Source: Gammaproteobacteria bacterium (lineage in GTDB: Bacteria > Pseudomonadota > Gammaproteobacteria > Burkholderiales > Rhodocyclaceae). Taken from it: a stretch of DNA of 64,000 nucleotides. The notes beneath the pieces are model-generated. The model saw only the letters and a program-made list of their open reading frames with translations, was not told where the DNA came from and searched no databases. Both the position numbers and the translations under genes were made by a program. The stretch lies in contig JARFTX010000001.1 in assembly GCA_029289265.1 (NCBI GenBank), positions 85,849 through 149,848 on the forward strand, read 5' to 3'. Position 1 is the stretch's first letter, and every line of letters starts with the position of its first letter. Shown piece by piece: positions 10,390-52,476 of the stretch.

Positions 10390-10420
10390 TCGCACCGGCC
10401 GTGTGTGGCTGTCGCCTGGG

Positions 10421-11711: not shown

Positions 11712-11778
11712 CTGTTCACCTTGCGTCTCTTTGATATGGAAGCGTCAGCCCCTCGTTCGGGGCCTCCAGGGTGCCACC

Positions 11779-11793: not shown

Positions 11794-11962
11794 TATTGGC
11801 TCGACTCGTGCACAAGAGAGCGACGTAGACGCGAATTCGAGGGCTCTGCCCAGATTGCGGTTGCTTCAAAGCAGGGCAGGTGCTACGTTTTGGAACAGCG
11901 CCTGAACACATGAACAGGACGGATAACAGGGCGCGCGAACAGGCATGAAGGAGGAGAACAGG

Positions 11963-36208: not shown

Positions 36209-37693
36209 ATGAACGACGATGGGCCGCTCACGGCGGCAAACCGACGCGGCCACCTATTGCTGCAGTCGATGATCGACCAGTCGCCCGCGTGGGTCGCCCT
36301 GTGCGGCACGGACGGCTGCTTTCTGCTCACCAATCGTGCCTACGCGCAGTCCCTGGGCCTGCTGCCCGAAGATCTCGTTGGGCGGCGCGAGGGCGATGTA
36401 CTTGACGCCGACAACGCACCCAGCACGCTGCGCGTGCGCGCGAACGGAGCGGCGGATACCGTCTCCTCAGCCTCCACGCTCGAGGAACTCGTCGTTCTCG
36501 GCGAGCATCGCTACTTCCTGGTCAACCGTTTCCCCGTGTTCGCCGACGATGGCGAAGCCGTTGCGAACGGATTGATCGCGACCGAGATCAGACCGCCCCT
36601 CGTCGGCACCGATGTGGCCGTGGCAACCCTGCAATGCGCTGAAGAGGCCAACGCCAGCTTGCGCCGCGCGCTCGAGCAGATGGAGAAGCTTGCCTACACC
36701 GATCGGCTGACCGGAACGTGGAACCGGCGCCATCTCGAGGACTCCGCGCTGGTCGAGATGTCGCGCAGCGAACGCCACGGTCACCCGGCGTCGCTGCTGA
36801 TCGCGGACATAGACCACTTCAAGCGCGTGAACGATCAGTTCGGACACCCGGCCGGCGACCGTGTCCTGCGAGAGCTGGTCGCCTGCATCCGCAGCGGTGT
36901 GCGCCGCGCCGACACGCTCACGCGCTGGGGCGGCGAAGAGTTCATCGTGCTTGCCCCCGACACGCCGCTGCATGAAGCCGAGTTGCTTGCGCAGAAGCTC
37001 TGCGCACGGATCGCGGCGACGCCGGTCCCCGGGGTCGGCCAGATCACCGTCAGCATCGGTGTTGCCGAGTACCAGTGCGGCGAGGGCTTCGACGCCTGGA
37101 TCTTGCGCGCCGATCGGGCCCTCTACCAGGCCAAAGTCGAAGGGCGCAACCGCTGCGTGTCCGACCCCGCCACGGCCTTCGATGCGGCCGGCGAGAAGCT
37201 CGTGCCGCCGACCCTTGTCCAATTGGTCTGGCGCGACAGCTACCGCTCGGGCGATGCCATGGTGGATCGGCAGCACCAGCAATTGTTTCGACACGCCAAT
37301 CGCTTGCTCGAGGCTGTCATGCTGGGTGCTCCCGGGGAAGCCGTGCTGGCAGCGACCCAGGCATTGCTCGACGATGTCTTGACGCATTTTCGCGACGAGG
37401 AGGCCTTGCACGTGCGCATCGGCTTTCCGGGCCGCGAATCGCACGCGCTCGAGCACGCGCGGCTGCTCGAGAAGGCACGCGATCTGTGCGACGGGGCGCG
37501 ACTCGAGGCGGTGAAGCCGGCCGAACTGTTCCAGTTCCTCGCCTACGAGGTGGTCGCCCAGCATCTGCTGGGGGTGGACCGGCGCTACTTTCCATACCTT
37601 GACGGGGAGGCGGCAACCCTGGCGCCACCATCGAACGGATCGCCGGACGACCTGTTTTTTTCGGGCGAAAGCAGGAATAATTCTCGGAACTAG
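36209..37693 (+). CDS. PAS-GGDEF-bacteriohemerythrin diguanylate cyclase
   Basis: A 494-residue cytosolic signalling protein. A PAS domain covers about residues 15-115 and a coiled linker 140-160. The GGDEF domain (160-325) has the active site RWGGEEF near 243, with a product-inhibition site RRAD just upstream. A C-terminal hemerythrin domain (about 335-470) has iron-ligand candidates in WRDSYRSGD, DRQHQQLF, HFRDEEALH and HALEHARLL. The di-iron domain binds oxygen, so cyclic di-GMP synthesis is probably tuned by oxygen. It is a single gene just upstream of the cytochrome locus. Confidence 0.92.
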   Translation: MNDDGPLTAANRRGHLLLQSMIDQSPAWVALCGTDGCFLLTNRAYAQSLGLLPEDLVGRREGDVLDADNAPSTLRVRANGAADTVSSASTLEELVVLGEHRYFLVNRFPVFADDGEAVANGLIATEIRPPLVGTDVAVATLQCAEEANASLRRALEQMEKLAYTDRLTGTWNRRHLEDSALVEMSRSERHGHPASLLIADIDHFKRVNDQFGHPAGDRVLRELVACIRSGVRRADTLTRWGGEEFIVLAPDTPLHEAELLAQKLCARIAATPVPGVGQITVSIGVAEYQCGEGFDAWILRADRALYQAKVEGRNRCVSDPATAFDAAGEKLVPPTLVQLVWRDSYRSGDAMVDRQHQQLFRHANRLLEAVMLGAPGEAVLAATQALLDDVLTHFRDEEALHVRIGFPGRESHALEHARLLEKARDLCDGARLEAVKPAELFQFLAYEVVAQHLLGVDRRYFPYLDGEAATLAPPSNGSPDDLFFSGESRNNSRN

Positions 37694-37893
37694 ACAATGT
37701 GCAAGGGGGTCGACCTGAGTCAAGCCTGCTGAACAGGCATGTGCAACGACGGCGCAAGTGGCTGCAAGGCCGCCCGATGGCGATGAATAGCCCCGAACGA
37801 CATGAGTCCCATTCGATAGTTACACAGCGACAAGGTCAGGACGGGAGCGATGCCGAAGCCGCTACGGCTGCGGCAAGTGCACCGACCGGGCAC

Positions 37894-40470
37894 ATGGCCG
37901 CGGGGCGATCACGCGCTCGAGGCCATGCCGACAAGAGGGTTTTTGATGGGCCGGGCAAGCTGGGGTGGCCCGGTGCGGCGCTAGCGGTTTTCGCCGTACT
38001 CGCATCTGCGGTCGGAGTCGAGCAGACCTACGCCCAGACACGCCAGTCCGACATCTCGGCAACCCTCCACAACCTCTCGGCATCGGGCCCGGGAACGGTC
38101 AGGGCCGATTCGGAAACCCAGATCTGCGTCTTCTGCCACACGCCCCACGCGGCAGTGGTCGCGCCCGGGCCGCTCTGGAACCGCGCGCTTTCGGGTGCGA
38201 CGTATACCCCTTACACCTCGGCCTCGCTCGATGCGGAGACGATCTTCGGCGCTCTTTCCCAGCCTGGTGGCAGTTCGAAGCTGTGCCTGTCCTGTCACGA
38301 CGGAACACTGGCGATCGGCACCGTAGCGGTGCTGGCCGGGCGGGCTAACGTGTCGATCCAGATGCAGGGTACCGGTCCTGGGGGCGTCATGCCGCCCGGC
38401 CTGGGCACCACCACCGGCTTCACCCGCAATCTCGGCATCGACCTGCGCAACGATCACCCGATCTCCTTCACCTACAACAACACGCTCGCGCTTGCCGATG
38501 GCGAGCTGCGCACCATGGACGCGCAACAGCGCCATCCGGAAGGCACCGGGACCGTGATCGGCATCCGCAGCCCGGGATTCCGCCCCCTGCTGCCGCTCGA
38601 GGCAACCGGCGAGGGCGGGGCCGGTCAGGTCCAGTGCGCGACCTGCCACGATCCCCATCTGGACGCCGACAAGTTCCTGCGGCTCAATCGCCTGCAGGTC
38701 GCCACACCGGCAGGTGGTGCCTTCAACCCGAGCGGCGACCAGATCTGTCTCGGCTGCCACGACAAGCTCGGCACCGCATGGTCGCAGTCGGCGCACGCCC
38801 ATCCGGACGTCGCCGACGAGGCCTACAAGCCGGCCGCGGCGGCGTTGCGCGAGTTTCCCGCCGGAACCCGCGTCTGGCAGGCCGGGTGTCTCAATTGCCA
38901 TGACACGCACGCGGTCCAGGGCTCGCGGCGCCTGCTGCGCGAGGGGGTCACGGGCGCGACCGGGGGCACGGGAGTGGGGCGCTACAAGCTGGGCTCCGGC
39001 GCCGATCCGCGCACCGTCTCGGCAATCGAGGAAACCTGCTACCAGTGCCACACCACTGCCGCGAACAGCGTGATCGACACGGCGACCGGTGTCGTGCCGA
39101 ACATCCAGACCGACTTCGGCCTGACCCGGAGGATGCCGATCACGACTGCAGAGCAGCGCGCCGGCATCGAGGTGCACGACATTCGCGACGCCGATTTCAC
39201 CGAGTCGCGCGAACACCTCGGACTGAACAACCTCGACAACCGGCACGCCGAGTGCACCGACTGCCACAACCCCCACCGCGTCATGCGCAACAGCCTGTTC
39301 AACGGTTTGGGCAGCAACACGCAGCGCACTCATACGGTGGGTGGACCCGGTGGAAATATCGCTTCCGGGGCGCTGCGGGGCACCTTCGGGGTCGAGCCAC
39401 AATACGGTTCGCGCAGTTTCTTCGCCTTGCCGACTTCGTATGTCGAGAAGAAGGGCGACGGCGGCATCGGGGCCAGCACGGCGGTGACCAGTCCGTGGGT
39501 GACGCGCGAGTATCAGATTTGCCTGAAATGTCACTCTGACTACGCCTACTTCGACGACAACATCCATCCGAGTGGCAACACGCGGCCGGAACTGGGCACA
39601 CCGGGCACGCCGGCGGGTGCGACGCAGCGCAACAACTACACGCGCTACACCAACCAGGCCCGCGAGTTCCAGGCGCCGCTGACGCACCGGGGCGCACCCG
39701 GCAGCCAGGGCACCGACGCCGGCGCCGGCTACAACGCCAACAACCATCGGTCTTGGCACCCGGTCATGGATGTGACCGGGCGCGGCACCGGGCAGCGCAA
39801 CAGCATGAATGCCAATTCCTTCGTTGCGCCGTGGAACGCGAACGTCGGAAACCAGACCATGCACTGCTCGGACTGCCACGGCTCGAATACGGCGGCGGGC
39901 ACGATCGTCCCGCCGGCGGGGCAGAACTGGGGTCCGCACGGGTCGCAGAACAACTTCATCCTCAAGGGACTTTGGGACACCGACAGCGGCGACGGCCAGG
40001 GCAACGCGCTGTGTTTCAAGTGTCACGCCGCAAACATCTATGCGCCGACTTCGGGCAGTGGGGGCACGACGGGATTCCGCACCAGCCGCGGTGACGGCCA
40101 TTACGTTCATAGCGCCCGTGACAAGATGAGCAGGTCCCGCTGCAATTGGTGCCATGTGGCGGTCCCGCATGGGTGGAAGAACAAGGCGCTGCTGGTCAAT
40201 CTCAACGACGTCGGCGCCGAGGCAGGGCAGACCGGCAGCAAGGAAGTGAACATCAATAGCAGTGCGGGCACCTACAACGAAGGTCCGTATTACCGCAATG
40301 CGAAGCTCAAGATCGTCAATTTTCGACAGAACTTCAACTGGGGCGAGAACGATTGCGGTTCAGCAAATAAGGCGGCTGCCGATCGGATACCGAACAGCCA
40401 GGGCGGCACGGGCAATACGACGGGAACCGGCGGAAACTGGATGAAGGCGACCTGCGCCAACCCGCCTTAG
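37894..40470 (+). CDS. Secreted undecahaem c-type cytochrome, first copy
   Basis: A large exported cytochrome with eleven CxxCH haem sites (CVFCH, CLSCH, CATCH, CLGCH, CLNCH, CYQCH, CTDCH, CLKCH, CSDCH, CFKCH, CNWCH), several in the doubled CxxCH style. The signal peptide core is LAVFAVLASAVGVEQTYAQ. The C-terminus carries CHVAVPHGWKNKALLVNL, nearly identical in the second cytochrome at 44146. I placed the start at ATG 37894, which gives a 48-residue leader. In-frame GTG 37699 and ATG 37777 are possible but would make an implausibly long N-terminus. No outer-membrane anchor or porin partner is encoded nearby. Its role is long-range electron transfer in the periplasm or outside the cell. Confidence 0.88.
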   Translation: MAAGRSRARGHADKRVFDGPGKLGWPGAALAVFAVLASAVGVEQTYAQTRQSDISATLHNLSASGPGTVRADSETQICVFCHTPHAAVVAPGPLWNRALSGATYTPYTSASLDAETIFGALSQPGGSSKLCLSCHDGTLAIGTVAVLAGRANVSIQMQGTGPGGVMPPGLGTTTGFTRNLGIDLRNDHPISFTYNNTLALADGELRTMDAQQRHPEGTGTVIGIRSPGFRPLLPLEATGEGGAGQVQCATCHDPHLDADKFLRLNRLQVATPAGGAFNPSGDQICLGCHDKLGTAWSQSAHAHPDVADEAYKPAAAALREFPAGTRVWQAGCLNCHDTHAVQGSRRLLREGVTGATGGTGVGRYKLGSGADPRTVSAIEETCYQCHTTAANSVIDTATGVVPNIQTDFGLTRRMPITTAEQRAGIEVHDIRDADFTESREHLGLNNLDNRHAECTDCHNPHRVMRNSLFNGLGSNTQRTHTVGGPGGNIASGALRGTFGVEPQYGSRSFFALPTSYVEKKGDGGIGASTAVTSPWVTREYQICLKCHSDYAYFDDNIHPSGNTRPELGTPGTPAGATQRNNYTRYTNQAREFQAPLTHRGAPGSQGTDAGAGYNANNHRSWHPVMDVTGRGTGQRNSMNANSFVAPWNANVGNQTMHCSDCHGSNTAAGTIVPPAGQNWGPHGSQNNFILKGLWDTDSGDGQGNALCFKCHAANIYAPTSGSGGTTGFRTSRGDGHYVHSARDKMSRSRCNWCHVAVPHGWKNKALLVNLNDVGAEAGQTGSKEVNINSSAGTYNEGPYYRNAKLKIVNFRQNFNWGENDCGSANKAAADRIPNSQGGTGNTTGTGGNWMKATCANPP

Positions 40471-40572
40471 GTGCCCTTGGTTCCTCGCCGAAGCTGATCG
40501 CGGTCAACGATCGCAGGGGATATCGCTGCTACAGTTCGGGCCGTTCCCACCGCAAACGGCCTGACTGCGCGC

Positions 40573-40920
40573 ATGAAACCCTGGCTCATCCTGATCAACG
40601 ACTTCGCCCACGATCTCTTCACCGGACTCTGGTTCGGCAGCTTCGTGACCATGTTCATCCTGCATCGCAAGGCCGGTGATCCGGCGCTCGACGGTGGGCA
40701 GTTCGCGCTCATGAACGAGCTCGTCGGCGTGTTCTTCTGGCTCACCTTCGTCTCGCTCGGCTGCATCATCATGACTGGCGTGTTCCGCTTCTTCTACTAC
40801 CGCACCTGGGATGGCGCGGGGATGAAGGACATCAAGAAGCGCCTCCTGATCATCAAGCATGCCGTGCTCGGCTCGTCCTTCCTGATCGGCACCGGCTTCG
40901 TGCTCGCCTGGGGGCTGTGA
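40573..40920 (+). CDS. Small integral membrane protein
   Basis: A 115-residue protein with three hydrophobic helices (about residues 15-32, 48-72 and 92-113). His residues in NDFAHDLF, ILHRK and IIKHAVLG could bind haem or metal in the membrane, as in CopD/b-type proteins, but I cannot prove this. It nearly overlaps the LuxE-like gene and starts a cassette between the two cytochromes. Confidence 0.72.
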   Translation: MKPWLILINDFAHDLFTGLWFGSFVTMFILHRKAGDPALDGGQFALMNELVGVFFWLTFVSLGCIIMTGVFRFFYYRTWDGAGMKDIKKRLLIIKHAVLGSSFLIGTGFVLAWGL

Positions 40921-40922
40921 GC

Positions 40923-42320
40923 ATGGCCGCCCCCCGCAAAACGCCGGCCGCCGCGCCGGACCCCGAGCGCGACCGCCTCGCTGAGCGCATCCGGGCGATG
41001 ATCGCGGCCGGTGTCGACGGCGACCCGGCACCCTTCGACGCCCTCGCGCTCGAGCTCTTCGCCTGGCAGTACGCGAAGAACGCCCCCTACCGCGAGTTCT
41101 GCGCGGCCAAGGGCGTCGCCCCCGAACAGGTCACCGACTGGCGTCAGATCCCGGCCTTTCCGACCGACGCCTTCAAGAGCGCGATCGTGACCTCGTTCCC
41201 GATCGAGCAGGCCGTGATGGCGCAGCTCACCAGCGGCACCACCGCGATCCAGCGCGGCCAGATCTTCCGCGACGAGCTTGGCCGCGAGCTGGTGCTCGCC
41301 GCCAACCGCGCGATGACTGCGGCCTATCTCTTTCCCGATTTCGCCGATGGCCGGCGCTGCCGCGTGCTGATCCTCGCGCCCAGCCCCGAGATGGCGCCGT
41401 CGATGGGCATGGCGATCGGCATGGAGGAGACGCGCCGCCACTTCGGCACGCCCGACAGCCGCTTCCTGCTCGATTTCTCCGGCCTCGACATCAAGAACCT
41501 GATCGCCGCGCTGGAACAGTCGGAGGCGACTGGCGTACCGGTTGCGATGATCGGCTCGACCTCGGCCTTCGTGTACTTCTTCAACGCCTGCAAGGCGCGC
41601 GGGCTGGGCTTCCGGCTGCCCGCAGGCAGCCGCATCGGCGACGGCGGCGGCTACCGCGGCCGCTTCGGCGAGCTCACCCAGGACGACTACTTCCGTCTCG
41701 CCGGCGAAGTCCTGGGGATACCGGCGAGCTACTGCGTCAACGTCCTCGGCATGGCCGAGAGCGCCACCAACTACTTCGACGATACCCTGCGTGCCGCGGT
41801 GCGCGGTGCCGAATCGAAGCGCCGCCGCATCCCGCCGCCGTGGGCGCGGGTCGAGGCGGTCGGTATCGAGGATCTGCGCCCGCTGCCGCCCGGCGAGGTC
41901 GGCCTGCTGCGCCACTACGACCTGGTCAACCTGCCCACGGTGATTGCGGTGCAGACCGACAACCTGGGCTACATCGACGGGGAGGGCGGCTTCCAGATCG
42001 TCGGGCGCGCCAAGATGATCGACGGCAAGCTCGCGCCGCTACCGAGCGAGCGCCCGGTCGGGCCGATGGGCGACAAGCGCATCTTCCGCTTCCTCGAGGC
42101 CTACGTGAACTTCTCCATCCGCTTCAAGATGGGGCTCGCCCGCGCGCGCCAGCCCGCACCCGCCGCCGTGACGCCGCAGCCGATGACGCCGCCGGTCTGC
42201 CCCTGCGACGAGCTCACCGAGGAGATGCTCGCGAACCCCGTGCCACGGCCGGGCGCTCCGTCCGACACCGCCGGCGAGGCGCGACCCGGCACCCCAGCCC
42301 AACCCCTGCGGCACCGCTGA
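40923..42320 (+). CDS. LuxE-like acyl-protein synthetase
   Basis: A 465-residue member of the LuxE/acyl-protein synthetase branch of the adenylate-forming fold. The region IPAFPTDAFKSAIV, the P-loop-like QLTSGTTAIQRGQ near residue 100, and NVLGMAESATNYFDD are typical. LuxE activates a fatty acid as acyl-AMP and transfers it to a protein cysteine. The last 60 residues form a Pro-rich tail with CPCDE that is not part of the family. No luxCD or luxAB genes accompany it, so it is not bioluminescence. The GTG at 40917 is an alternative start. Its partner may be the radical SAM protein downstream. Confidence 0.8.
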   Translation: MAAPRKTPAAAPDPERDRLAERIRAMIAAGVDGDPAPFDALALELFAWQYAKNAPYREFCAAKGVAPEQVTDWRQIPAFPTDAFKSAIVTSFPIEQAVMAQLTSGTTAIQRGQIFRDELGRELVLAANRAMTAAYLFPDFADGRRCRVLILAPSPEMAPSMGMAIGMEETRRHFGTPDSRFLLDFSGLDIKNLIAALEQSEATGVPVAMIGSTSAFVYFFNACKARGLGFRLPAGSRIGDGGGYRGRFGELTQDDYFRLAGEVLGIPASYCVNVLGMAESATNYFDDTLRAAVRGAESKRRRIPPPWARVEAVGIEDLRPLPPGEVGLLRHYDLVNLPTVIAVQTDNLGYIDGEGGFQIVGRAKMIDGKLAPLPSERPVGPMGDKRIFRFLEAYVNFSIRFKMGLARARQPAPAAVTPQPMTPPVCPCDELTEEMLANPVPRPGAPSDTAGEARPGTPAQPLRHR

Positions 42321-42397
42321 CTTCCCGGTCAGCCATTCCCGGCAGCCCGCAACGCGTTGTCCGGCGCGCCTCTCCGCGCCTTTTTGCGGGCGCCTTG

Positions 42398-42411
42398 TTG
42401 ATATTAATCAA
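42398..42411 (+). promoter_or_regulatory. FNR/Anr box upstream of the radical SAM gene
   Basis: TTGATATTAATCAA matches the FNR consensus TTGAT-N4-ATCAA perfectly. A candidate -10 TACCAT at 42434-42439 puts the transcript start near 42446, about 41 bases from the box centre. That is the class II activation geometry. The gene starts at 42499. Confidence 0.85.
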
Positions 42412-42498
42412 GTCTCTTGGCGTAGGGCTCGCCTACCATTCGCGAAGCCCGACGCACCTGCCGGTGTCGTCTCGCGAGCCCGATCAGAGAGCCAATAA

Positions 42499-44082
42499 GT
42501 GAAAATCGCCGACACCCCCCTGACCTTCATCCCGCCGCCGCGCAAGGGCCCCGCCAAGCCGCGCAACCGCCGCATCCGCCGCGTCGCGCTCGTCACCGTG
42601 CCGTACCACTCGGGCGTGGTCGAATCCGCCGGCACCTGGCTCAACGTCGGCTTCGTCTACATCGCAGGCGCCTTGCGCGCCGCCGGCTACGAGGTCGACT
42701 ACTACGACGCGATGTCGCTGTGGCACAAGGAAGACGACATCCGCAAGCGCCTCGAGGACTTCCGCCCCGACGTGGTGTGCACCTCGGCCTTCACCGCCGC
42801 CATCGTCGCCGCCACCGGCCTGCTGCGGCTCGCCAAGGAGGTCGACCCGGAGATCGTCACCGTCATCGGCAACGTGCACGCCACGTTCTGCTATCCGGAG
42901 ATGCTCAAGGTCGACGGCGACGCGATCGACTTCGTCGTCCGCGGTGAGGGCGAGCGCACGCTGCCCGAACTGCTCGACTGCCTCAACGCCGGCGACGATC
43001 CGGCCAAGGTCGCCGGCATCGCCTTCCTGCGCGACGGCCAGGTCATCGCCACCCGCTCGGCCGCCTTCATCCGCGACCTCGACAGCCTGCCCACCGCCTG
43101 GGACCTGGTCGAGTGGCCGATCTACACCTACCGCGCCAAGAAGAACTCGCGCCTCGCCATCGTCTCGTCCGCCCGCGGTTGCCAGGAAAACTGCTCGTTC
43201 TGCTCGCAAAAGCTCTTCTGGCGCCGCGGCTGGCGCGCCCGCAGCCCGGAGAACTTCGTCGCCGAGCTGGAAATGCTGCACCGGACCTACGGTGTGAACG
43301 TCGCGATGCTCGCCGACGAGATCCCGACGCTGGACCGCGCGCGCTGGGAGCGCATCCTCGACCTGATGATCGAGCGCAAGCCGGGCGTGCGCCTGCTGAT
43401 GGAAACCCGCGTCGACGACATCGTGCGCGACGAGGACCTGATGGACCGCTACGCGCTCGCCGGCATCGAGCACATCTACGTCGGCGTCGAGGCCGGCAAG
43501 CAGGCCACGCTCGACCTCTTCAAGAAGGGCTCGAAAGCCGAGGACTCGCGCCGCGCGATCGACCTCATCAACGGCGCCGACATCGTCTCCGAGACCTCCT
43601 TCGTGCTCGGCATGCCGACCGACACGCCCGAGACCTTCGCCGAGGCGGTCGAGCTCGCCAAGCAGTACAACCCGGACATGGCCTTCTTCCTCGCCATCGC
43701 GCCCTGGCCCTACGCCGACCTCTACCCGCAGCTCAAGGACCACGTCGCGACCAAGGACTACAGCAAGTACAACCTCGTCCAGCCCGTCGTCAAGCCGGAT
43801 GCAATGACGCTGGATGAAGTGGAGCGCGAGCTCGGCCGCGCCTCGCGCAATTTCTTCATGCACAAGTTTCAGAACCTCGACGAGCTGTCGAGCTGGAAGC
43901 GCGAGTTCATGCTGTCGGTGTTCGACATCCTGATCAACCACTCCTACCTCTCCGGCCAGATGCAGGACATGGCCGCCGCCAAGCGCATGCCCGAAGAGGT
44001 CAAGGCGATGCTGAAAAAGGTCAGCGCCGCCAAGCGCGACATCCGCCAGGGCGAGGCGCGGACCTTCGCGCCGATTCCCTGA
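42499..44082 (+). CDS. B12-binding domain radical SAM enzyme
   Basis: A 527-residue protein with an N-terminal cobalamin-binding Rossmann domain (about 28-165, VALVTVPYHSG to IGNVHATFCYPEMLK). The radical SAM domain has CQENCSFC (CxxxCxxC) near residue 227 and METRVDDIVRDEDLMDRY. This is the BchE/HpnR-like class, which performs methylations, cyclisations or C-C bond chemistry on lipids and tetrapyrroles. A helical C-terminal domain of about 120 residues ends in Lys-rich repeats. The GTG start at 42499 follows a weak site. The perfect FNR box suggests anaerobic expression, fitting an oxygen-sensitive enzyme. The substrate is unknown. Confidence 0.85.
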   Translation: MKIADTPLTFIPPPRKGPAKPRNRRIRRVALVTVPYHSGVVESAGTWLNVGFVYIAGALRAAGYEVDYYDAMSLWHKEDDIRKRLEDFRPDVVCTSAFTAAIVAATGLLRLAKEVDPEIVTVIGNVHATFCYPEMLKVDGDAIDFVVRGEGERTLPELLDCLNAGDDPAKVAGIAFLRDGQVIATRSAAFIRDLDSLPTAWDLVEWPIYTYRAKKNSRLAIVSSARGCQENCSFCSQKLFWRRGWRARSPENFVAELEMLHRTYGVNVAMLADEIPTLDRARWERILDLMIERKPGVRLLMETRVDDIVRDEDLMDRYALAGIEHIYVGVEAGKQATLDLFKKGSKAEDSRRAIDLINGADIVSETSFVLGMPTDTPETFAEAVELAKQYNPDMAFFLAIAPWPYADLYPQLKDHVATKDYSKYNLVQPVVKPDAMTLDEVERELGRASRNFFMHKFQNLDELSSWKREFMLSVFDILINHSYLSGQMQDMAAAKRMPEEVKAMLKKVSAAKRDIRQGEARTFAPIP

Positions 44083-44145
44083 GGCGAAGCACGAGAACCC
44101 GGATACGAGCCGCCCGATGAGCGACCCTATACCCACGGACCGAGC

Positions 44146-46623
44146 ATGGTGATGAGATTCCTCCGCAGGACACCCCTGGTCGCGTTTCTGGCAATGGCGC
44201 TGTTCGCATACGTCGCGGCCGTGTCGGCGCAGAACACGAATGCGAACATCGCGAATACGCGGCACAATCTGTCGGCCTCGAATCCGATCCCGGATCAGCC
44301 GGGACGCCCCACAGTCAAAGCGACCAGCGAGAGCCAAATCTGCGTGTTCTGTCATACACCGCACGCGGCCAACGCGGCTGCGCCGGGTCCGCTCTGGAAT
44401 CGCCAGCTATCCGGCGCAACTTACACGCCGTATATCTCCAATTCGCTAGACGCCGCGACGATCCTCGGCGGGCAACTCGGTCAGCCGGGCGGAAGCTCCA
44501 AGCTGTGCCTGTCCTGTCATGACGGGACGCTTGCACTCGGCACGGTCAGCAATGCGCCGGGGAGCGGCGGAGCGGGCGGTACCATTGCCATGGGCGGCGC
44601 GGGTGCTGGCGGCACGATGCCGGCCGGGGATGGATTGACGAGCGGCTACACGCGCAATCTCGGGACCGATCTTCGCAACGACCATCCGATTTCGTTCACC
44701 TACAACCCGGTCCTGGCCGCGGCCGACGGGGAACTGCGCACCCCGCCATACTCGTCGGGCGGAACGCTGATCGTCGGGTCGCGCGAGGGGGGCGCAAGGC
44801 CGCTCCTGCCGCTCGACCACAACAATCATGTGCAATGTACGACTTGCCATGATCCACATCTCGACGCGAGCAAGTTTCTTCGATTGAACCGACTGCAGAC
44901 TGCAAATCCTACTGGAGGGGCCTTCAGCCCCGCCAATGACCAGATTTGCCTTGGTTGTCACGACAAACTCGGACAGTCGTGGTCACAGTCGGCGCACGCT
45001 AACCCGACTGTTGCCGACGAGGCCTTTACCAACGAAGCTGCGGACCGACGCGAGTTTCCCAGGGGCACCCGGGTCTGGGAAGCCGCCTGTCTCAGCTGTC
45101 ACGATACGCATGCAGCACAAGGTACCCGCCGGTTATTGCGCGACGGCGTTGCGGGTGCCAGCAGCGGAACAGCTAGCGGGTCGTTCAAACTCGGATCTAG
45201 TGCAGCGGATCCCGCGACCAGTTCCGCGATCGAGGAGACTTGCTACCAGTGCCATCGCGGCGATGCAAACCGCGTGATCGGCACGGCAACCGGTTCAGTT
45301 CCGAACATTCTGACTGAATTCGACCGCACAATCCGCAAGCCCATCATAAGCTCGGCTCAAGGCGGCGGAGGTAATACCACGGAGCGCCACAACATTCGGG
45401 ACGCCGATTTCATGGAGACCCCTGAGCAATTGGGGCTGGGCAATCATGCCAATCGGCACGTCGAATGCACCGATTGCCATAACCCGCATCGCGTGCTGCG
45501 CAACAGCCTGTTCAACGGCCAGGGAAGCAACACAGCAAGGACACACGTCGCAGGCGGCACGGCCACGAACCGCGGTGCAGACGGGAACGTGGCATCGGGG
45601 GCGCTACGCGGCACCTGGGGTGTGGAGCCGAACTACGGCAACGTCACCACTTGGCCGCAGATTCCCTTGAGCTATGTGGTGAAGAAGGGGGACCCCGGTA
45701 CCAGCGTCGGCACGGAAAGAAGCCAACCCTATCTCACACGCGAATATCAGCTTTGTTTCAAATGTCACTCGGATTATGGTGGCACCTCGGGCGGGCAGAT
45801 GCCCCCACTCGGCTATCCCGGCGGCACGCCGTCCGGGACGATGGGGCTGACCCGCTACACCAACATTGCAGCCGAGTTCGCTGTCAATGCTACCGACCCA
45901 CCGTCGACGGGGAACGACCAGGGGGAGAACAGCAACGACCCGACCTTTACTCCCACGGCAGTGAATCACCGCTCTTGGCACCCGGTTGTCATGCCAACCG
46001 GACGAACGCCGCGCGAGCGAACGAACACCACAAACACGAACTCCTTCACCAATATTCGGGCGCCGTTCAACACGCACAACAATATTGGTTACCAGACCAT
46101 GCAGTGTTCGGATTGCCACGGGGCTAACGCGACCGGATTGAACGAACCTACTGTGCAGGGACCTCATGGCTCGGCCAACAACTTTCTATTGAAGGGACCG
46201 TGGAGCAACGCGCTTCGTCCTGCGGATATCAATGCCACCAACAGCAACAACTGGCTGTGCGGCCGTTGCCACAATCCGGCGGGCACTGCAGGTGGATTCA
46301 GTTCCGGGGATGCGAACCACGATTTTTCAGCGAAGCGTAATGCATCGTGCACGACATGCCATATCGCAATTCCGCACGGATGGAAGAACAAGGCGTTCCT
46401 GGTAAACCTGCTTTGCGTGCAAAGCGAGGGCGGGGCCGGGTATACGAACAACTGCACCAGTATTGCGGGTTCCTCTCGGCAGACGATCGAACCCTATTAT
46501 TTCCGCGCAGGACTGCGGATTCAAACCTGGCAACGGAGTACCGCTTGGACTTTGGGTAGTTGCAGCGGCGGCGGCGATGCGCGAGATTGGATGACCGCCC
46601 TGTGCGAAAGCGGGGGAACCTGA
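44146..46623 (+). CDS. Secreted undecahaem c-type cytochrome, second copy
   Basis: An 825-residue exported cytochrome, paralogue of the one at 37894, with eleven CxxCH sites in the same order (CVFCH, CLSCH, CTTCH, CLGCH, CLSCH, CYQCH, CTDCH, CFKCH, CSDCH, CGRCH, CTTCH). The signal peptide is clear (MVMRFLRRTPLVAFLAMALF, cleavage near VSAQ). It shares NLSAS, GPLWNRQLSGATYTPY, the NDHPISFTYN motif and the C-terminal PHGWKNKAFLVNL. Base use is visibly richer in A and T than the first copy, so the pair may not be a recent duplication but two lineages brought together. Cytochrome-assembly genes follow directly. Confidence 0.92.
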   Translation: MVMRFLRRTPLVAFLAMALFAYVAAVSAQNTNANIANTRHNLSASNPIPDQPGRPTVKATSESQICVFCHTPHAANAAAPGPLWNRQLSGATYTPYISNSLDAATILGGQLGQPGGSSKLCLSCHDGTLALGTVSNAPGSGGAGGTIAMGGAGAGGTMPAGDGLTSGYTRNLGTDLRNDHPISFTYNPVLAAADGELRTPPYSSGGTLIVGSREGGARPLLPLDHNNHVQCTTCHDPHLDASKFLRLNRLQTANPTGGAFSPANDQICLGCHDKLGQSWSQSAHANPTVADEAFTNEAADRREFPRGTRVWEAACLSCHDTHAAQGTRRLLRDGVAGASSGTASGSFKLGSSAADPATSSAIEETCYQCHRGDANRVIGTATGSVPNILTEFDRTIRKPIISSAQGGGGNTTERHNIRDADFMETPEQLGLGNHANRHVECTDCHNPHRVLRNSLFNGQGSNTARTHVAGGTATNRGADGNVASGALRGTWGVEPNYGNVTTWPQIPLSYVVKKGDPGTSVGTERSQPYLTREYQLCFKCHSDYGGTSGGQMPPLGYPGGTPSGTMGLTRYTNIAAEFAVNATDPPSTGNDQGENSNDPTFTPTAVNHRSWHPVVMPTGRTPRERTNTTNTNSFTNIRAPFNTHNNIGYQTMQCSDCHGANATGLNEPTVQGPHGSANNFLLKGPWSNALRPADINATNSNNWLCGRCHNPAGTAGGFSSGDANHDFSAKRNASCTTCHIAIPHGWKNKAFLVNLLCVQSEGGAGYTNNCTSIAGSSRQTIEPYYFRAGLRIQTWQRSTAWTLGSCSGGGDARDWMTALCESGGT

Positions 46624-46675
46624 CGTGCAGATGGCGAACGTGCCCACTCAAAAGCTGAGGCTAAGGCTAAGGCCA

Positions 46676-47656
46676 ATGAAACTGCTGGCCGCATTGGCGT
46701 CGCCGCGGTGGACGGTGGGCGTCTTCGTTCTGCTGGCCGCCGGTGCACTCGGGGTGTTGGAGTTCGAGCTAAGTGCAACGTTGGCGATGGCTCCCGCATT
46801 CACACTGCTGACTGCCAACCTTGCAGCGTCGATTGCAACGAATGCTCGCTTTCGCCGCGACCTGCCGCTACTGGTTTTTCATCTCGCCCTGTTGATGCTG
46901 ATTGCTTTGTTCTCGATCGGTCGATTGACCTATTTTGAGGGGACGACCACTCTGACTGACGGGACCGAATTCGATAACGATTTGCTGTCCGAGGAACGAG
47001 GCGCATGGCACGGCGATGGCCTGTCCACGCTTCGTTTTCGCAATGAGGGCTTCACAGAAAAATTTCCCGAACGCGGAAACCTGCACGCGACGTATAACCG
47101 TGTGCGGTGGTGGGATGATGCAGGCAACAGCTACGTTGCGGAAATCGGCGATGATATTCCCCTTGTTCTCGATGGGTACCGCATTTACACGAGTTGGCGT
47201 CGAGGCTTTTCTCCCCTGTTCCTCTGGGAGCCTGATGCTGGCGAAGCGGAATACGGTACGGTCCAACTCCAGGAAATGGCGAGTGGCGGCAGTGGATTCG
47301 CGCCGGCCAGCGACTGGCAGTTGCCGGGTGGTCCGACGATCTGGGTCATGCTCGACCTCGATAACTTGCCCGCGCCGGAAAGGGGGCGCCGGGACGCGCT
47401 CGGAGCGGAGTCGGTCCGGCATCACCTGATCGTGCGTCTCGACAATGAGCGACGGGAGGTTTTGCCGGGCGAGACAATCGAAGTCGAAGGAGGACGGCTC
47501 ACCTATGCGGGCCTTCGTTCATGGATGGGTTATCGCATCGTGTACGATCCGACAATTGACTGGCTCAATGCGACGGTCATCGTGGCCGTTGGCAGCCTGC
47601 TCTGGTTCTATGGACGTCTCTTGCGACGGCGTGCCGCGACGGAGGATGCGGAATGA
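46676..47656 (+). CDS. ResB-like cytochrome c biogenesis protein
   Basis: A 326-residue membrane protein. Helices cover about residues 12-32, 37-55 and 63-82, a large periplasmic domain of about 200 residues follows, and a final helix lies near 295-312. The opening MKLLAALASPRWTVGVFVLL and the overall layout resemble ResB (Ccs1), which keeps apocytochrome ready for haem attachment. It is shorter than full ResB. I prefer ATG 46676 (AAGG spaced nine bases) to ATG 46631. It overlaps the next gene by ATGA and should partner the CcsA-like protein at 50257. Confidence 0.75.
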   Translation: MKLLAALASPRWTVGVFVLLAAGALGVLEFELSATLAMAPAFTLLTANLAASIATNARFRRDLPLLVFHLALLMLIALFSIGRLTYFEGTTTLTDGTEFDNDLLSEERGAWHGDGLSTLRFRNEGFTEKFPERGNLHATYNRVRWWDDAGNSYVAEIGDDIPLVLDGYRIYTSWRRGFSPLFLWEPDAGEAEYGTVQLQEMASGGSGFAPASDWQLPGGPTIWVMLDLDNLPAPERGRRDALGAESVRHHLIVRLDNERREVLPGETIEVEGGRLTYAGLRSWMGYRIVYDPTIDWLNATVIVAVGSLLWFYGRLLRRRAATEDAE

Positions 47657-48468
47657 TGCGGCGGGAGTCCATCGCCCTCGGTTTATCGTTGATGGCAGTT
47701 GTGGCGTCTGCGGCTCCACCGGCCGAATCATGGGTCGAGCCTGAAACGGGCATGGCATTCGTGTGGGTCGCCGGGGGCTGCTTTCAGATGGGGACCGACG
47801 AACATGTCCCGCTTAGGGGGGATACCCTCTGGAATCACCTCGGTCCAGACCGAAATCTCGCTCTCGACGAGCAACCTCGTCATGAGGTGTGTGTGGATGG
47901 GTTCTGGATGAGTTTGCATGAGACGCGAGTTTCCGAGTGGCAGTCCCTAATGGGCGGACTCGTCCAGGAGGGTGTGGATCCTGCGAGGCCGATTGCTGCG
48001 ATTACATGGCACGAGGCGCGGGCTTTTGCTCAGAAGATGACTGAGCGTACGGGGGGGCAGTCACGCTTCCGGCTCCCCACCGAGGCAGAATGGGAGTACG
48101 CATGTCGCGCCGGCGCCGACGATGAGGAGATTCCTCGCGGAAGCGAAGCGATCGACAGAGCCTGGTACAACCGCAATGAGAATCGCGACCCGCGTCCGCG
48201 CCCGGTCGGGCAACTGGAACCCAATCCATTTGGGCTCTACGACATGCTCGGCAACGTCTGGGAGTGGACGGAAGATGCCTATCTCGCCGACGCCTATGCC
48301 AGCCACGCCCTCTATAATCCGCGCGTCGAGGCGCCAAGCGATAGCCGCGTCATCCGTGGCGGCAGTCACCGCTCGGAGCCTGAGCACATTCGCTGCGGTC
48401 GCAGGGGCCACTATTCCGCCGACGCTCGTCTTCGCACGGTCGGTTTTCGGTTGATTCGAACTGAATAG
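47653..48468 (+). CDS. Formylglycine-enzyme-fold protein lacking catalytic cysteines, first
   Basis: A 271-residue secreted protein (signal peptide to VASAA) with the SUMF1/FGE-sulfatase fold. It has FVWVAGGCFQMGTDE near residue 38, RLPTEAEWEYACRAG, DMLGNVWEWTED and RVIRGGSHRSEPEHIR. In true formylglycine-generating enzymes two cysteines lie just after RGGS; here those positions hold Ser and Ile. It is therefore unlikely to make formylglycine and may be a binding or assembly protein. It is overlapped by ResB and followed by a related gene. Confidence 0.85.
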   Translation: MMRRESIALGLSLMAVVASAAPPAESWVEPETGMAFVWVAGGCFQMGTDEHVPLRGDTLWNHLGPDRNLALDEQPRHEVCVDGFWMSLHETRVSEWQSLMGGLVQEGVDPARPIAAITWHEARAFAQKMTERTGGQSRFRLPTEAEWEYACRAGADDEEIPRGSEAIDRAWYNRNENRDPRPRPVGQLEPNPFGLYDMLGNVWEWTEDAYLADAYASHALYNPRVEAPSDSRVIRGGSHRSEPEHIRCGRRGHYSADARLRTVGFRLIRTE

Positions 48469-48476
48469 GGTACGTG

Positions 48477-49403
48477 ATGCGCAAAGCAATCATTGCATTA
48501 TCGATGCTGGCATCGATGACGTCGGGTGCCGAAAGTGCCGCCGCGGATGGGCCGCCTCGTGAGGTCGTTGTCAATGGAGTCGAGTTCGTCCTGGTGCCGG
48601 AAGGGTGGTTCTGGCACAGCGTCGAGAACGGCGATATCACCCAGCTCGGCGTCGACGAACCTATGTTTCGCGATGTGCACCTCTGGATCGATGCCTTTTA
48701 CATCGCAAAATACGAAGCTCGTGCAAGAGACTTCGAGCGCTTCATGAATTCGGGTGATGCCCGAGTCTCCGAGCAATATCGAAATGGCGAAGTCGAAGGT
48801 TGCGGAGTGCAACGAGACGCCGGCGGACGATACTTTCTGGTCGAGCCTGAAATGGATCTGCCCGCCACGCATTTATCGTGGCAGCTTTCAGATGAGTTTG
48901 CCGCCTGGATGGGGTTCCGCCTGCCAACTGAGATGGAATGGGTGAAGGCCGCTCGAGGCACCGATCAGCGCATTTGGCCGTGGGGCGATGAATATCCGGA
49001 CGATACCTTCGCCGGATTTGGTTTCGATGCAAACTGCAACCCGACCTCGGTGACAGAGTTCCCGAAGGGGGCTTCACCTTTCGGCGCGTACAACATGGCC
49101 GGAAACGTCTATGAGTACGTGGCCGACTGGTATAACCCCGAGCACGATGCAACCTTGCAGGACGGCATGCGCAATCCTCCGATTGCCGCATCGGGTTCGA
49201 CGTCGCGCAACGACCTGAATGTCCCCAACAAGATCCTGAAGGGCGGTCGTTGGGGCTCGGCCCCGCAGTCGATCACCGTACGCGAGCGGCAGGTTGCGCC
49301 ACCTGAGTTTGCATTTCTGTGCTACGGCGTGCGCTTCGCCGTGGACGTCGCGACAGTTCAGGGACTGCTCGCAGATGAAAAGGCACGGGTTGTCCAGCCA
49401 TGA
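48477..49403 (+). CDS. Formylglycine-enzyme-fold protein lacking catalytic cysteines, second
   Basis: A 308-residue exported protein of the same fold as its neighbour (signal peptide to about ESAAA). Landmarks are FVLVPEGWFWHS, RLPTEMEWVKAARG, NMAGNVYEYVADW and KILKGGRWGSAPQS. The catalytic cysteine pair is again missing. A GTG sits one codon before the chosen ATG. It overlaps the TPR gene by ATGA. Two non-catalytic copies in a cytochrome-assembly operon suggest a structural or haem-delivery role; this is inference. Confidence 0.83.
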   Translation: MRKAIIALSMLASMTSGAESAAADGPPREVVVNGVEFVLVPEGWFWHSVENGDITQLGVDEPMFRDVHLWIDAFYIAKYEARARDFERFMNSGDARVSEQYRNGEVEGCGVQRDAGGRYFLVEPEMDLPATHLSWQLSDEFAAWMGFRLPTEMEWVKAARGTDQRIWPWGDEYPDDTFAGFGFDANCNPTSVTEFPKGASPFGAYNMAGNVYEYVADWYNPEHDATLQDGMRNPPIAASGSTSRNDLNVPNKILKGGRWGSAPQSITVRERQVAPPEFAFLCYGVRFAVDVATVQGLLADEKARVVQP

Positions 49404-50260
49404 AGGGGGGCGAAGTGGCTTCTAGGCGACTCAATGCCCCGCGACGCGATGTGCGGGTACTCGCCTTCGCATTGCTTGCCCTCGCTGTCGTTGCCTTGTC
49501 GCACCTGGTTACTTTGATACCGGGGCGTGGGATTGAAGCGTCCGTGAGGCCCGCTCGACCAGACAAGAATCTCGCCAACTTGTTTCCGCGTGCGGACACC
49601 AAGACGGCTCCGGAGCAGGCACCTCGCAACGAGTTGGATGTTCTGATTGAACCTGCCGTCGATCCGCGCCTGGATCCCGAAGGCCACGTTCGTCATGCCC
49701 GGTCGGTGCAAGCGGCGGCGATGCTGGCAGAAGGGGCCGCGCTGATGGAAACTGGACGCTTCGACGAAGCGGTCCAGATCATCGACCAGGCTGGTCAGCT
49801 CGTTCCCGACAATCCAGTTGCGTACGTTTACATGGGTCGTGCGCTGAAGGGGCGAGGTGACTATCATGCCGCGCAGTTTTTCTTCGAGCGTGCAATGGAT
49901 CTCGACCCACTCCATGCAGACGCTTACTTCGGGTATGCCCAGGCATCCGAAGGACTTGGCGATCTCGAGTCGGCGCTCGGGGCGATGCGAAGCTTCCTGC
50001 ACGTGGTCGATGATCCCGATCCCTTCAGATTGCCAGTCGCTCAGGCTCGGTCTGCGATCTGGGAATGGGAAGCTGAATTGGGGCGCGGCCCTTGGGGGCC
50101 CACCCGGGGAATCCCGCCCGGTTTCACCGCTGAGGAAGTCCGGCGTGACGGTCGTGGCGTGGGCGTCAAGATGCAAAAGGCCGACACGATGAGCGAAGAC
50201 GGCACTATGGAGTTCGAGATCAAGGCGGGCGACCGCATCCCGGATTTGTTCAAGCCATGA
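49400..50260 (+). CDS. Membrane-anchored TPR protein
   Basis: A 286-residue protein with one N-terminal helix (about 19-40) and a periplasmic part. Three TPR-like units lie at about residues 100-205 (RFDEAVQIIDQAGQLVPDNP, GDYHAAQFFFERAMDLDPLH, GDLESALGAM). The layout recalls the CcmH/NrfG-type TPR proteins that present apocytochromes. The C-terminus (IKAGDRIPDLFKP) is free of repeats. It is coupled by ATGA overlaps on both sides. Confidence 0.82.
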   Translation: MKGGEVASRRLNAPRRDVRVLAFALLALAVVALSHLVTLIPGRGIEASVRPARPDKNLANLFPRADTKTAPEQAPRNELDVLIEPAVDPRLDPEGHVRHARSVQAAAMLAEGAALMETGRFDEAVQIIDQAGQLVPDNPVAYVYMGRALKGRGDYHAAQFFFERAMDLDPLHADAYFGYAQASEGLGDLESALGAMRSFLHVVDDPDPFRLPVAQARSAIWEWEAELGRGPWGPTRGIPPGFTAEEVRRDGRGVGVKMQKADTMSEDGTMEFEIKAGDRIPDLFKP

Positions 50261-51078
50261 CCCTGACCGAGCTGGAACTAAACGCCTTCTGGACCGCCCT
50301 CGTAGGCTATTCGATCGCGACGGCGCTGGCGATGTGGGCGTTGGTTTTTCGGAGAAAGCCCGAGCGGACGCTTCTGTTCCTGATGAGCACCGCACTGCTG
50401 CTGCATACGATTGCGATCGGTGCGCGTTGGGTTCGAGTCGGACACATGCCTGTCGCCAGCATGTTCGAGTTGCTGTCGGCGAACGTATGGGGTCTGATGG
50501 CGGCTGTGGTGATCGGGTACTGGCTGCTGCCTAGAATGCGGGCTTTTGCAGCCGTTGTCTTGCCGGTGGTCATCATGGTGATGGCGTGGATGCTCTTGCC
50601 TCCGATGGAGGTTACGGCGCTTCCGCCGACCTATGACACGATCTGGCTATACGTCCATATCGCATTCATCAAGCTTTTTCTCGGCGCGGCCTTCGTGGCG
50701 CTTGGACTGGCGGGAATCATCCTGTTGCGGGCAGCTAACCTCGGTCGCGACCGATTCGCCGGCCTCCCCGCTGATTCAGCACTGGATGAGACGGCATACC
50801 GGTGCATGGCTTTGGCACTCATCTTCGATACGCTTGGTATCGTTGCTGGCTCGATCTGGGCGCACGACGCCTGGGGGCGCTACTGGTCCTGGGACCCTCT
50901 GGAGATCTGGTCCTTGCTGACCTGGCTTGCCATTGGATTGACCTTGCATGTGCGCGCGTCGTTTCGAACGCCACCGGTGATCAATTCCTTGTTGATCCTC
51001 GGAACCTTTGTGATCGCCTTCTTCACCTTCTTTGGAATTCCGTTCGTCTCGACCGCTCTGCACAAAGGGGCGATCTGA
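50257..51078 (+). CDS. CcsA-like haem-handling cytochrome c assembly protein
   Basis: A 273-residue protein with eight predicted helices of the CcmC/CcmF/CcsA family. The haem-binding tryptophan-rich loop WGRYWSWDPLEIWSLLTW (WWD-type) is near residue 208. Conserved His lie in LLHTIAIGARW, LYVHIAF and LTLHVRASF. With the ResB-like protein it forms a system II (Ccs) haem lyase, apparently dedicated to this locus. It is coupled to the TPR gene by ATGA. Confidence 0.88.
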   Translation: MTLTELELNAFWTALVGYSIATALAMWALVFRRKPERTLLFLMSTALLLHTIAIGARWVRVGHMPVASMFELLSANVWGLMAAVVIGYWLLPRMRAFAAVVLPVVIMVMAWMLLPPMEVTALPPTYDTIWLYVHIAFIKLFLGAAFVALGLAGIILLRAANLGRDRFAGLPADSALDETAYRCMALALIFDTLGIVAGSIWAHDAWGRYWSWDPLEIWSLLTWLAIGLTLHVRASFRTPPVINSLLILGTFVIAFFTFFGIPFVSTALHKGAI

Positions 51079-51231
51079 TCTGGGCGTGTTGCCTCTTGGT
51101 TCAATGGATTCCACGGCTCACGCTTGGCTTAGCCAAGAGCCGGGAATTCATCTTTCACGTGATGGCCATGTGCATCCGGCGCTCTTGTGCCTCTTCGCAA
51201 CGCGCAGTGGCGCGAGGGTTATTGACCTTTG

Positions 51232-52476
51232 ATGAGTACTCAGCTTTCCACTGGCAGGCGTTTAGCTCTGCTCATCGCGACGTTGTCCGTGGTGATGGTG
51301 ATCGCCACCTATGCGGGATTCGTCGCATGGAAGCACTACCAGGGCTATTCGAAGGCGGAGCGCGGTGAGGTACCGCTCTACACCGACTTCACATCGACCT
51401 ACGCGGCCTCCATCCTCATTCGCGAGATGCCCGCCGAGTACCTGTATCTGCCAAGGGCGATGTCCGCAGCGAGTCGGGAAGCTGCGCGGAGAATGTATGG
51501 AAACATCAGCGATGAGCAGGCTCGGGGGGTGGGTTTCGCACCCTGGATGTATCCGCCGACCTTTATCCTGGTAATCGCACCGCTGGCCTCGATGCCCTAC
51601 CTGTTGTCCTGGCTTTCATGGTTGATCGTCACCGCAGTGCCTTATCTCGTGGCGATCAGCAAGATTCTCCCAGGCCGCCTGGCCTGGCCTCTTGCCCTCG
51701 CAGCACCGCCGGTGTTTTTCAACGTCATGTACGGTCAGACGGGCTTTCTTATTGCGGGTCTGATCGGGCTCGGCCTGGTTCTGCTTGCGAGGTATCCCAT
51801 CATGGCGGGAGTGCTGATTGGACTCGCCAGCGTAAAGCCGCATTTCGGAGTCTTGATTCCTCTAGCATTGATTGCCGGGGGGCAGTGGCGCGCGTTTGCG
51901 TCGGCCATCGTGACGGTAATCGCGATGATTGTGGCGAGCATGGTTGCCTTCGGTGACGAACCCTGGTTCGCCTTCATTGGCACCGCGCTTTTCCATCTGG
52001 AGGGGTTTGGCGTCGGCGCCTATAACTTCGTTCCCATGACGACGGTGCTTGCCACTGTCCACATGGCCGGCGTCTCGCTCGATCTAGCATGGAAGTTTCA
52101 GCATGCGGCGGCGGTTCTTGCAGCCGCACTCGTCATCTGGACGTGGTGGAAAGGTTGTTCCCGGCCAGACACGCTAGGCCTGCAGGCTGCGATCCTGTTG
52201 CTGGCGACGCCGCTCGCGGTGCCGATGGCCTATCTCTACGACCTGGTCCTGATCGTCCCGGCCGCCGCGTGGCTCTGGGCCGACCTGTGCGAACGCGGTG
52301 CGAAGCCAGCCGAGTTCGCACTGCTGGCCGCGCCGCTCGCAGCATTTCTGGCCGCGAAGGAGGTCGCCGCGACGTTCGGCGTCCAGATCGGCGCGGTGCT
52401 TGTTGCAGTGCTGCTTGGGTTGGCGCTGGCGCGATATCGCGCGGCACTGGCTCGGGTGGAGGTGCGGGGCGATTGA
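51232..52476 (+). CDS. GT87-like (DUF2029) polytopic glycosyltransferase
   Basis: A 414-residue membrane protein with about 10-11 helices. The first large loop has YTDFTSTYAASILI and the acidic and aromatic WMYPPTFIL motif. These are characteristic of GT87/DUF2029 enzymes, which use polyprenyl-phosphate mannose or similar donors. It could glycosylate an exported protein or lipid; the neighbouring cytochromes are candidates only by position. The 153-base gap before it holds no gene. Confidence 0.78.
   Translation: MSTQLSTGRRLALLIATLSVVMVIATYAGFVAWKHYQGYSKAERGEVPLYTDFTSTYAASILIREMPAEYLYLPRAMSAASREAARRMYGNISDEQARGVGFAPWMYPPTFILVIAPLASMPYLLSWLSWLIVTAVPYLVAISKILPGRLAWPLALAAPPVFFNVMYGQTGFLIAGLIGLGLVLLARYPIMAGVLIGLASVKPHFGVLIPLALIAGGQWRAFASAIVTVIAMIVASMVAFGDEPWFAFIGTALFHLEGFGVGAYNFVPMTTVLATVHMAGVSLDLAWKFQHAAAVLAAALVIWTWWKGCSRPDTLGLQAAILLLATPLAVPMAYLYDLVLIVPAAAWLWADLCERGAKPAEFALLAAPLAAFLAAKEVAATFGVQIGAVLVAVLLGLALARYRAALARVEVRGD

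Follow-up and report, generated by a model that had tools for sequence, protein, structure and literature searches.

A pair of UetJ-family undecahaem cytochromes in a Rhodocyclaceae genome and a predicted module around the second

The 64,000-nucleotide stretch of a Rhodocyclaceae genome analysed here (positions 85849-149848 of contig C114, hereafter the window, whose own positions are used for the locus) encodes two cytochromes, designated UetJ1 and UetJ2. Both belong to the UetJ family, the undecahaem component of the Uet (undecahaem electron transfer) complex, and judging from sequence they are likely to be parts of a Uet-type extracellular electron-transfer system, the outer-membrane half of which lies on the same contig, some 15-31 kb further downstream, with UetJ2 as the predicted core of a discrete inserted module. 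The family and the type of system are known ones; what differs is the arrangement and the distinct second module.

37777-40470, + strand: UetJ1 (P0001), undecahaem cytochrome, 11 CxxCH; start codon uncertain, either 37777 or 37894 (the choice of the preliminary description)
44146-46623, + strand: UetJ2 (P0002), undecahaem cytochrome with export signal, 11 CxxCH

The UetJ family and its genomic surroundings

The Uet complex, UetA-J, was described in Candidatus Tenderia and Gallionella, where UetJ is the undecahaem cytochrome, UetA a tetrahaem cytochrome, UetB a peptidylprolyl isomerase, UetC a porin, UetDEG trihaem cytochromes and UetHI NHL proteins (PMC10734462). A conserved uetABCDEFGHIJ cluster has been named in Tenderiales (PMC12575090), UetJ and its porin are reported from part of the Sphaerotilus-Leptothrix group (PMC13386937), and the undecahaem protein of Ca. 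Tenderia electrophaga has been put forward as a possible electron-transfer route (PMC5371394). The Ca. Tenderia undecahaem protein Tel_16545 is presumably a UetJ. The idea of a system not yet described in Betaproteobacteria, raised in the preliminary description of this stretch, does not hold for the cytochrome family, which was already reported from Gammaproteobacteria and from two betaproteobacterial groups (PMC10734462, PMC13386937).

A neighbourhood survey, which the same description had proposed, was performed on the best 80 of 423 encoded relatives in the genome collection, corresponding to 79 distinct loci, and it returned constant Uet-type surroundings. By title all 79 loci are from Pseudomonadota, including Azoarcus, Aromatoleum, Ramlibacter, Piscinibacter, Sphaerotilus, Magnetococcales and many Gammaproteobacteria. 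The recurring gene order is tetrahaem, PpiC, large porin, trihaems, NHL protein, undecahaem, ResB, CcsA and TPR. Upstream sequence of 8 kb or more is available for 54 loci; porin and PpiC were each found upstream of the undecahaem gene in 44 of them, the tetrahaem in 40, and trihaems and NHL proteins each in 46, with porin, PpiC, trihaem and NHL protein jointly present in 43. On the downstream side 74 loci extend for 1.2 kb or more; ResB was detected by profile in 56 of these, and six of the 18 misses (L020, L035, L070, L071, L075 and L076) have a nearby ResB match in the BLAST listing. Of 274 genomes drawn evenly from the class, 40 were matched by the UetJ profile at E 0.001, N-terminal-only matches being counted, and 25 (the window's own genome included) with more than 1000 bits; UetJ2 was matched at E 0.001 in eight of 101 genomes, namely its own and the 100 nearest relatives.

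The two cytochromes had been described as secreted proteins with eleven CxxCH sites in the same order, and this was borne out, the export signals having been read by eye: both carry a plain signal peptide and in neither was a lipobox seen. UetJ1 and UetJ2 are 60% identical in the alignment and 53% by BLASTP. The PHGWKNKA motif, previously taken for a shared tail, is located after haem 11 with 93 and 75 residues still to come, and its core is family-wide, H744, G745 and N748 being invariant in 71 aligned members. No third full-length undecahaem protein was found in the genome by a search with UetJ2, and an NrfA-type identity was rejected, PF02335 being without match in the genome.

UetJ1 is the ordinary Uet lineage of Azoarcus/Aromatoleum. 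In a quick UetJ tree of 89 rows, from which the FGE-linked copy of L001 is absent, it falls in the Azoarcus/Aromatoleum UetJ1 clade with Halomonas as sister, apart from the seven UetJ rows linked to genes of the formylglycine-generating enzyme (FGE) fold, which form a single clade with a Shimodaira-Hasegawa-like approximate likelihood ratio test (SH-aLRT) value of 100. A long-branch warning was raised on the two Motiliproteus rows; the FGE-linked clade persists with either of them removed (49 and 50 of the 89 rows). A recent tandem duplication as the source of UetJ1 and UetJ2 was rejected on account of these separate clades, which are kept with either Motiliproteus row removed. Two near-identical tandem UetJ genes do occur in one metagenome-assembled genome (L042:7235-9730 and 9881-12391), as a recent duplication or an assembly artefact.

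A predicted outer-membrane set downstream of the window

The preliminary description reported that no porin or outer-membrane partner was present. This is correct within positions 37894-52476 and does not extend to the genome: a UetC-type porin is encoded at C114:158250-160457, which is 26 kb past UetJ2 on this contig. When the porin of a related locus was used as query, a single match was obtained in the genome (C114:158721-160448, 33% identity). No Pfam family was matched by the own-genome protein, and that it forms a barrel is presumed by analogy with the published UetC. The set to which it belongs starts at C114:153914, which is 15.6 kb past the GT87 gene of the locus and 4.1 kb beyond the end of the window. 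The genes follow each other on the same strand in the order tetrahaem (247 residues), NHL protein, tetrahaem (277 residues), PpiC, porin, two trihaems and two NHL proteins, after which come ResB, CcsA, TPR and further trihaems. Positions are given below on locus L085, where position x is C114 position 145999+x.

L085:7915-8658 (C114:153914-154657), same strand as the rest of the set: 247-residue tetrahaem cytochrome
L085:10182-11015, same strand as the rest of the set: 277-residue tetrahaem cytochrome
L085:12251-14458, same strand as the rest of the set: porin

The undecahaem cytochrome, an OmcE-like tetrahaem, PpiC, porin, trihaems and NHL proteins of the described Uet complex are therefore all found on one contig. 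They differ from it in being distributed over two separate loci with two undecahaem cytochromes and two ResB-CcsA pairs, and in the FGE, LuxE, radical-SAM, TPR and GT87 genes that accompany the second undecahaem gene. The first gene of the downstream set comes about 21 kb after the end of UetJ2 and about 28 kb after that of UetJ1, and there is no single contiguous cluster with UetJ in it. A. toluclasticum and A. tolulyticum have a similar split, their UetJ1 and porin being about 24 kb apart. Likened by description, the PCC3 clusters of iron oxidisers (PMC5566968) are also similar in combining a porin with extracellular and periplasmic multihaem cytochromes.

Behind related loci, the own-genome porin was matched in 14 of 19 genomes, and a tetrahaem-sized match to the 277-residue protein was present in all 11 genomes tested. 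We do not claim a loss of the porin in A. diolicum and A. evansii, where it was not matched, as a UetA-like tetrahaem-sized match exists in both; that of A. evansii lies about 1.5 kb from a contig start, on the downstream side, so that the porin gap may be one of assembly.

The UetJ2 module and haem attachment

The genes around UetJ2 and on both sides of the locus are, in window positions:

36209-37693, + strand: probable PAS-GGDEF-hemerythrin protein upstream of UetJ1; homologue at the same spot in L001, L002, L008 and L120
40573-40920, + strand: small membrane protein of 115 residues with weak CopD likeness (NCBIfam CopD E 6e-4, 19 of 195 bits)
40917-42320, + strand: LuxE-family protein (PF04443, 77 bits)
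42499-44082, + strand: B12-binding radical-SAM protein, BchE-like (PF02310 and PF04055; TIGR02026, 412 bits)
46625-47656, + strand: ResB-like protein with GTG start (PF05140, 35 bits, covering model positions 152-335 of 486)
47653-48468, + strand: FGE-fold protein 1, export signal by eye (PF03781, 155 bits)
48474-49403, + strand: FGE-fold protein 2, export signal by eye (PF03781, 115 bits)
49400-50260, + strand: TPR protein with a single N-terminal membrane anchor by eye (TPR models; faint CcmH/CycH likeness, TPR_CcmH_CycH E 0.0017, under cut-off)
50257-51078, + strand: CcsA-like protein with WGRYWSWD (PF01578, 94 bits; TIGR03144, 136 of 188 bits)
51229-52476, + strand: GT87 glycosyltransferase (PF09594, 122 bits)

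The chain of ResB, two FGE-fold, TPR, CcsA and GT87 genes reported after the second cytochrome is confirmed by both coordinates and Pfam matches. One base separates the UetJ2 stop (ending at 46623) from the ResB GTG at 46625; overlaps of four bases join ResB to FGE1 (47653-47656), FGE2 to TPR (49400-49403) and TPR to CcsA (50257-50260), and gaps of five and 150 bases are found between FGE1 (end 48468) and FGE2 (start 48474) and between CcsA and GT87. ResB and CcsA, both over the Pfam cut-off and with three genes between them, lie in one tight chain and are thus predicted to form part of a single transcription unit. Scans for promoters (1, against 2.7 in shuffles) and terminators (10, against 9.6) remained at about shuffle level. 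The cassette between the two cytochromes had been called lipid-like, a character that stays putative. It holds the small membrane protein, without any matched Pfam family, the LuxE-family protein and the BchE-like radical-SAM protein; the last of these scores under the TIGR02026 (BchE) equivalog cut-off of 481 bits in NCBIfam. Upstream of UetJ1, the PAS-GGDEF-hemerythrin gene may be a regulator tying the locus to oxygen or to a cyclic di-GMP signal, the GGDEF, PAS_4 and Hemerythrin domains having been read by Pfam on the homologue L004:8272-9723 only.

The module consists of the small membrane protein, LuxE, BchE-like radical SAM, UetJ2, ResB, FGE, FGE, TPR and CcsA genes, and is best read as an inserted and co-inherited unit between UetJ1 and GT87. 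Indeed, UetJ1 stands directly before GT87 in A. toluclasticum (L005), A. tolulyticum (L006) and Halomonas (L012), and the module lies between the two genes in the window, L001, L008 and G062; GT87 had no match in L004, and the sequence of L003 ends too soon. Among named Aromatoleum, A. toluvorans and A. evansii are carriers of the module. FGE-fold proteins are encoded at six of the 79 loci, four from Azoarcus/Aromatoleum and two from the gammaproteobacterium Motiliproteus, and both UetJ2 and the module CcsA fall in clades that include Motiliproteus. Module CcsA proteins, in a tree of 59 rows, form one clade (100/100) with only FGE modules, apart from the CcsA of the downstream locus of the same genome. 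The small protein, LuxE and radical-SAM genes are found upstream of UetJ2 in L001, L009 and L029, and the latter two also in L002 and L008; in L010 the FGE part is present and LuxE and radical SAM were not matched in 9.9 kb upstream. LuxE is rare in the class (four of 274 genomes including the own one, the other three with partial matches of 26-41% identity). In Motiliproteus sp. SC1-56 (L029) the module is accompanied by LuxE and radical SAM, and neither UetJ1 nor GT87 was found in the 10 kb flanks; the same locus holds four FGE-fold matches (L029:13735-18182), two on either side of the TPR gene. The module looks new and was not found described in limited literature searches (among them one on FGE with multihaem cytochromes and one on undecahaem cytochromes or extracellular electron transfer in Aromatoleum/Azoarcus).

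A formylglycine-generating enzyme has a catalytic Cys pair near the C-terminus. Aligned with SUMF1 (2AFT), FGE1 retains one of the two catalytic Cys, the residues at these positions being Pro and Cys; in FGE2, inspected by eye where the SUMF1 alignment stops short, no Cys pair was seen in the C-terminal part. The CxPxR motif is absent from both cytochromes, which rules out that the FGE-fold proteins act on them through it. With this and with Pro in place of Cys in FGE1, formation of formylglycine on the cytochromes is unlikely.

Two ResB matches were obtained in the genome, one per Uet locus (32.4 bits, and 21.0 or, with neighbours, 30.1, at a cut-off of 24.6). PF01578 has six matches, including the two Uet-linked CcsA and two adjacent genes on contig C1, of which the larger is CcmF (CcmF_C match) and its neighbour is taken as CcmC-like. 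The search for System I covered CcmF and this CcmC-like neighbour, and the predicted genes for both are located apart from the Uet loci. Because the ResB matches of the genome are confined to Uet loci while CcmF lies elsewhere, the cytochrome assembly line is probably a dedicated one, and the private line of the preliminary description is to this extent well supported. For the UetJ1 of A. toluclasticum and A. tolulyticum no ResB was found within 10 kb downstream, and either the ResB and CcsA of the downstream locus or Ccm would be needed to serve them. A dedicated pair is not a new idea, as ResB-ResC pairs transcribed together with multihaem cytochromes of Geobacter were proposed as such in 2009 (PMC2700814). 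The present case is like that one in having a ResB and ResC-type pair by multihaem cytochromes, and unlike it in that CcmF is also encoded in the genome and that FGE-fold genes stand between ResB and CcsA.

We envisage that apo-UetJ2 would be exported by Sec, in keeping with its signal peptide, and that the ResB-CcsA pair, by its families, would carry haem over the inner membrane and attach it separately from Ccm System I. Holding, folding or scaffolding of the apoprotein might fall to the TPR protein and to FGE1 and FGE2, of which at least one is without the catalytic Cys pair; for the FGE fold, scaffolding or folding is the function we infer. The finished UetJ2 would then relay electrons between periplasmic carriers and the porin and OmcE-like parts.

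OmcE likeness and the explanations weighed

By sequence search, the first ~240 residues of both cytochromes matched PDB 7TFS (UetJ1 E 4e-21, UetJ2 E 2e-25), which is the OmcE filament of Geobacter sulfurreducens (PMC12954529), and 9YUQ (E 5e-10 and 9e-16, respectively). The latter entry, a 'putative multiheme cytochrome c' of 218 residues with 16 chains, is homologous to the OmcE-matching region of UetA as well as of UetJ and is possibly another OmcE-family filament; its code appeared in none of the papers listed. In the downstream set, the 277-residue tetrahaem matched OmcE with E 2e-31 in two stretches reaching the end of OmcE, and it ends two residues past its fourth CxxCH, as OmcE does; the 247-residue tetrahaem matched with E 9e-18. 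A real link to extracellular cytochrome wires is thus supported, through an N-terminal third homologous to OmcE. Nearly the whole UetA-like protein shares this homology, and UetJ is unlike OmcE in carrying seven additional haems.

The eight OmcE-type His residues (four proximal and four further) are kept in an alignment of UetJ N-domains and UetA-like proteins holding 109 of 115 pieces, six being omitted: H40 in 107 (with two gaps), H73 in 108 and the other six in all 109. The 247-residue tetrahaem is without the TPH histidine (CVFCHTPT), kept in 108 of the 109 relatives, so that one of its haems may be ligated differently or be open at that site. On the separate contig C80, L087:4528-5772 encodes another OmcE-like cytochrome, which has five CxxCH and a CLACHVK end like that of the 277-residue tetrahaem.

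Several observations weigh against the assignment of UetJ1 and UetJ2 to a Uet-type system with its outer-membrane half downstream. Membership in the family was assigned through the eleven CxxCH and the published description of the Uet gene set; 12 of the 74 loci have no ResB in either the profile search or the BLAST listing; and the porin was unmatched in five of the 19 genomes (A. diolicum, A. evansii, two Motiliproteus and one Halomonas). As both Motiliproteus genomes with an FGE module are among these, the UetJ2 module may work without UetC. Since the Uet set is split here and UetJ was not found in its downstream part, physical cooperation of the two parts is what we infer. The cytochromes might instead be ordinary periplasmic monomers, matured by the general Ccm route with ResB and CcsA as incidental neighbours, as would suit the plain signal peptides without visible lipobox and the CcmF and CcmC-like genes; with ResB following UetJ at 56 of 74 loci across Betaproteobacteria, Gammaproteobacteria and Magnetococcales, and with UetJ2 and its CcsA co-inherited, we hold this to be highly improbable, a periplasmic location by itself being conceivable. 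Somewhat less remote, and still unlikely, is a chemical modification of UetJ2 or of its haem with acyl, methyl or glycosyl groups by the LuxE, radical-SAM, FGE-fold and GT87 proteins, giving a surface-anchored or altered cytochrome. The recurrence of LuxE and radical SAM upstream of UetJ2 in L001, L002, L008, L009 and L029 speaks for it, as does the best score of the radical-SAM protein with BchE, a tetrapyrrole enzyme; the lack of CxPxR in the cytochromes and of one catalytic Cys in FGE1, the FGE part of L010 without LuxE or radical-SAM match, and the signal peptide that was not seen by eye in either LuxE or the radical-SAM protein all speak against it.

Polymerisation can be pictured in two ways. 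OmcE has one interfacial haem that takes its His ligand from the neighbouring subunit (PMC12954529, PMC12307469), and with all eight OmcE-type His kept, UetJ could itself polymerise into a nanowire to which each subunit brings eleven haems, its N-terminal His ligating a haem of the neighbour. In full UetJ, however, all 71 rows keep 13 His other than those of CxxCH, with one further such His in 69, where 11 are needed, so that the ligand count reveals no missing ligand, and the four-haem UetA-like protein with its OmcE-like end is the better filament candidate. The AlphaFold2 models, made without haem, are too weak to decide: full UetJ2 reached a predicted local distance difference test score (pLDDT) of 59.7 with a predicted template-modelling score (pTM) of 0.68 and gave no Foldseek match, and the N-terminal domain reached a pLDDT of 49.6. 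We therefore give the homopolymer little credence. Alternatively, and as a speculative proposal of low probability, UetJ would be an adaptor capping or rooting an OmcE-like UetA filament: its N-domain would mimic one subunit and contact, through its N-terminal His, the last haem of the adjacent filament subunit, and the seven-haem part would fill the place of the next subunit and wire the filament to the porin. UetJ2 would then be a second, chemically tailored adaptor with its own System II pair and with LuxE, BchE-like and FGE-fold processing.

Under the preferred assignment to a Uet-type system, the finding bears on cytochrome filaments as well as on haem attachment. How the cytochrome filaments of Geobacter are exported and anchored is still called speculative (PMC12307469); an OmcE-like domain fused to a seven-haem part, near a porin and an OmcE-like tetrahaem, opens this question to tests in named Aromatoleum strains. 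Dedicated cytochrome maturation finds a natural test in a genome that encodes CcmF and has ResB matches at two Uet loci only, and the UetJ2 module gives natural pairs of species with and without it.

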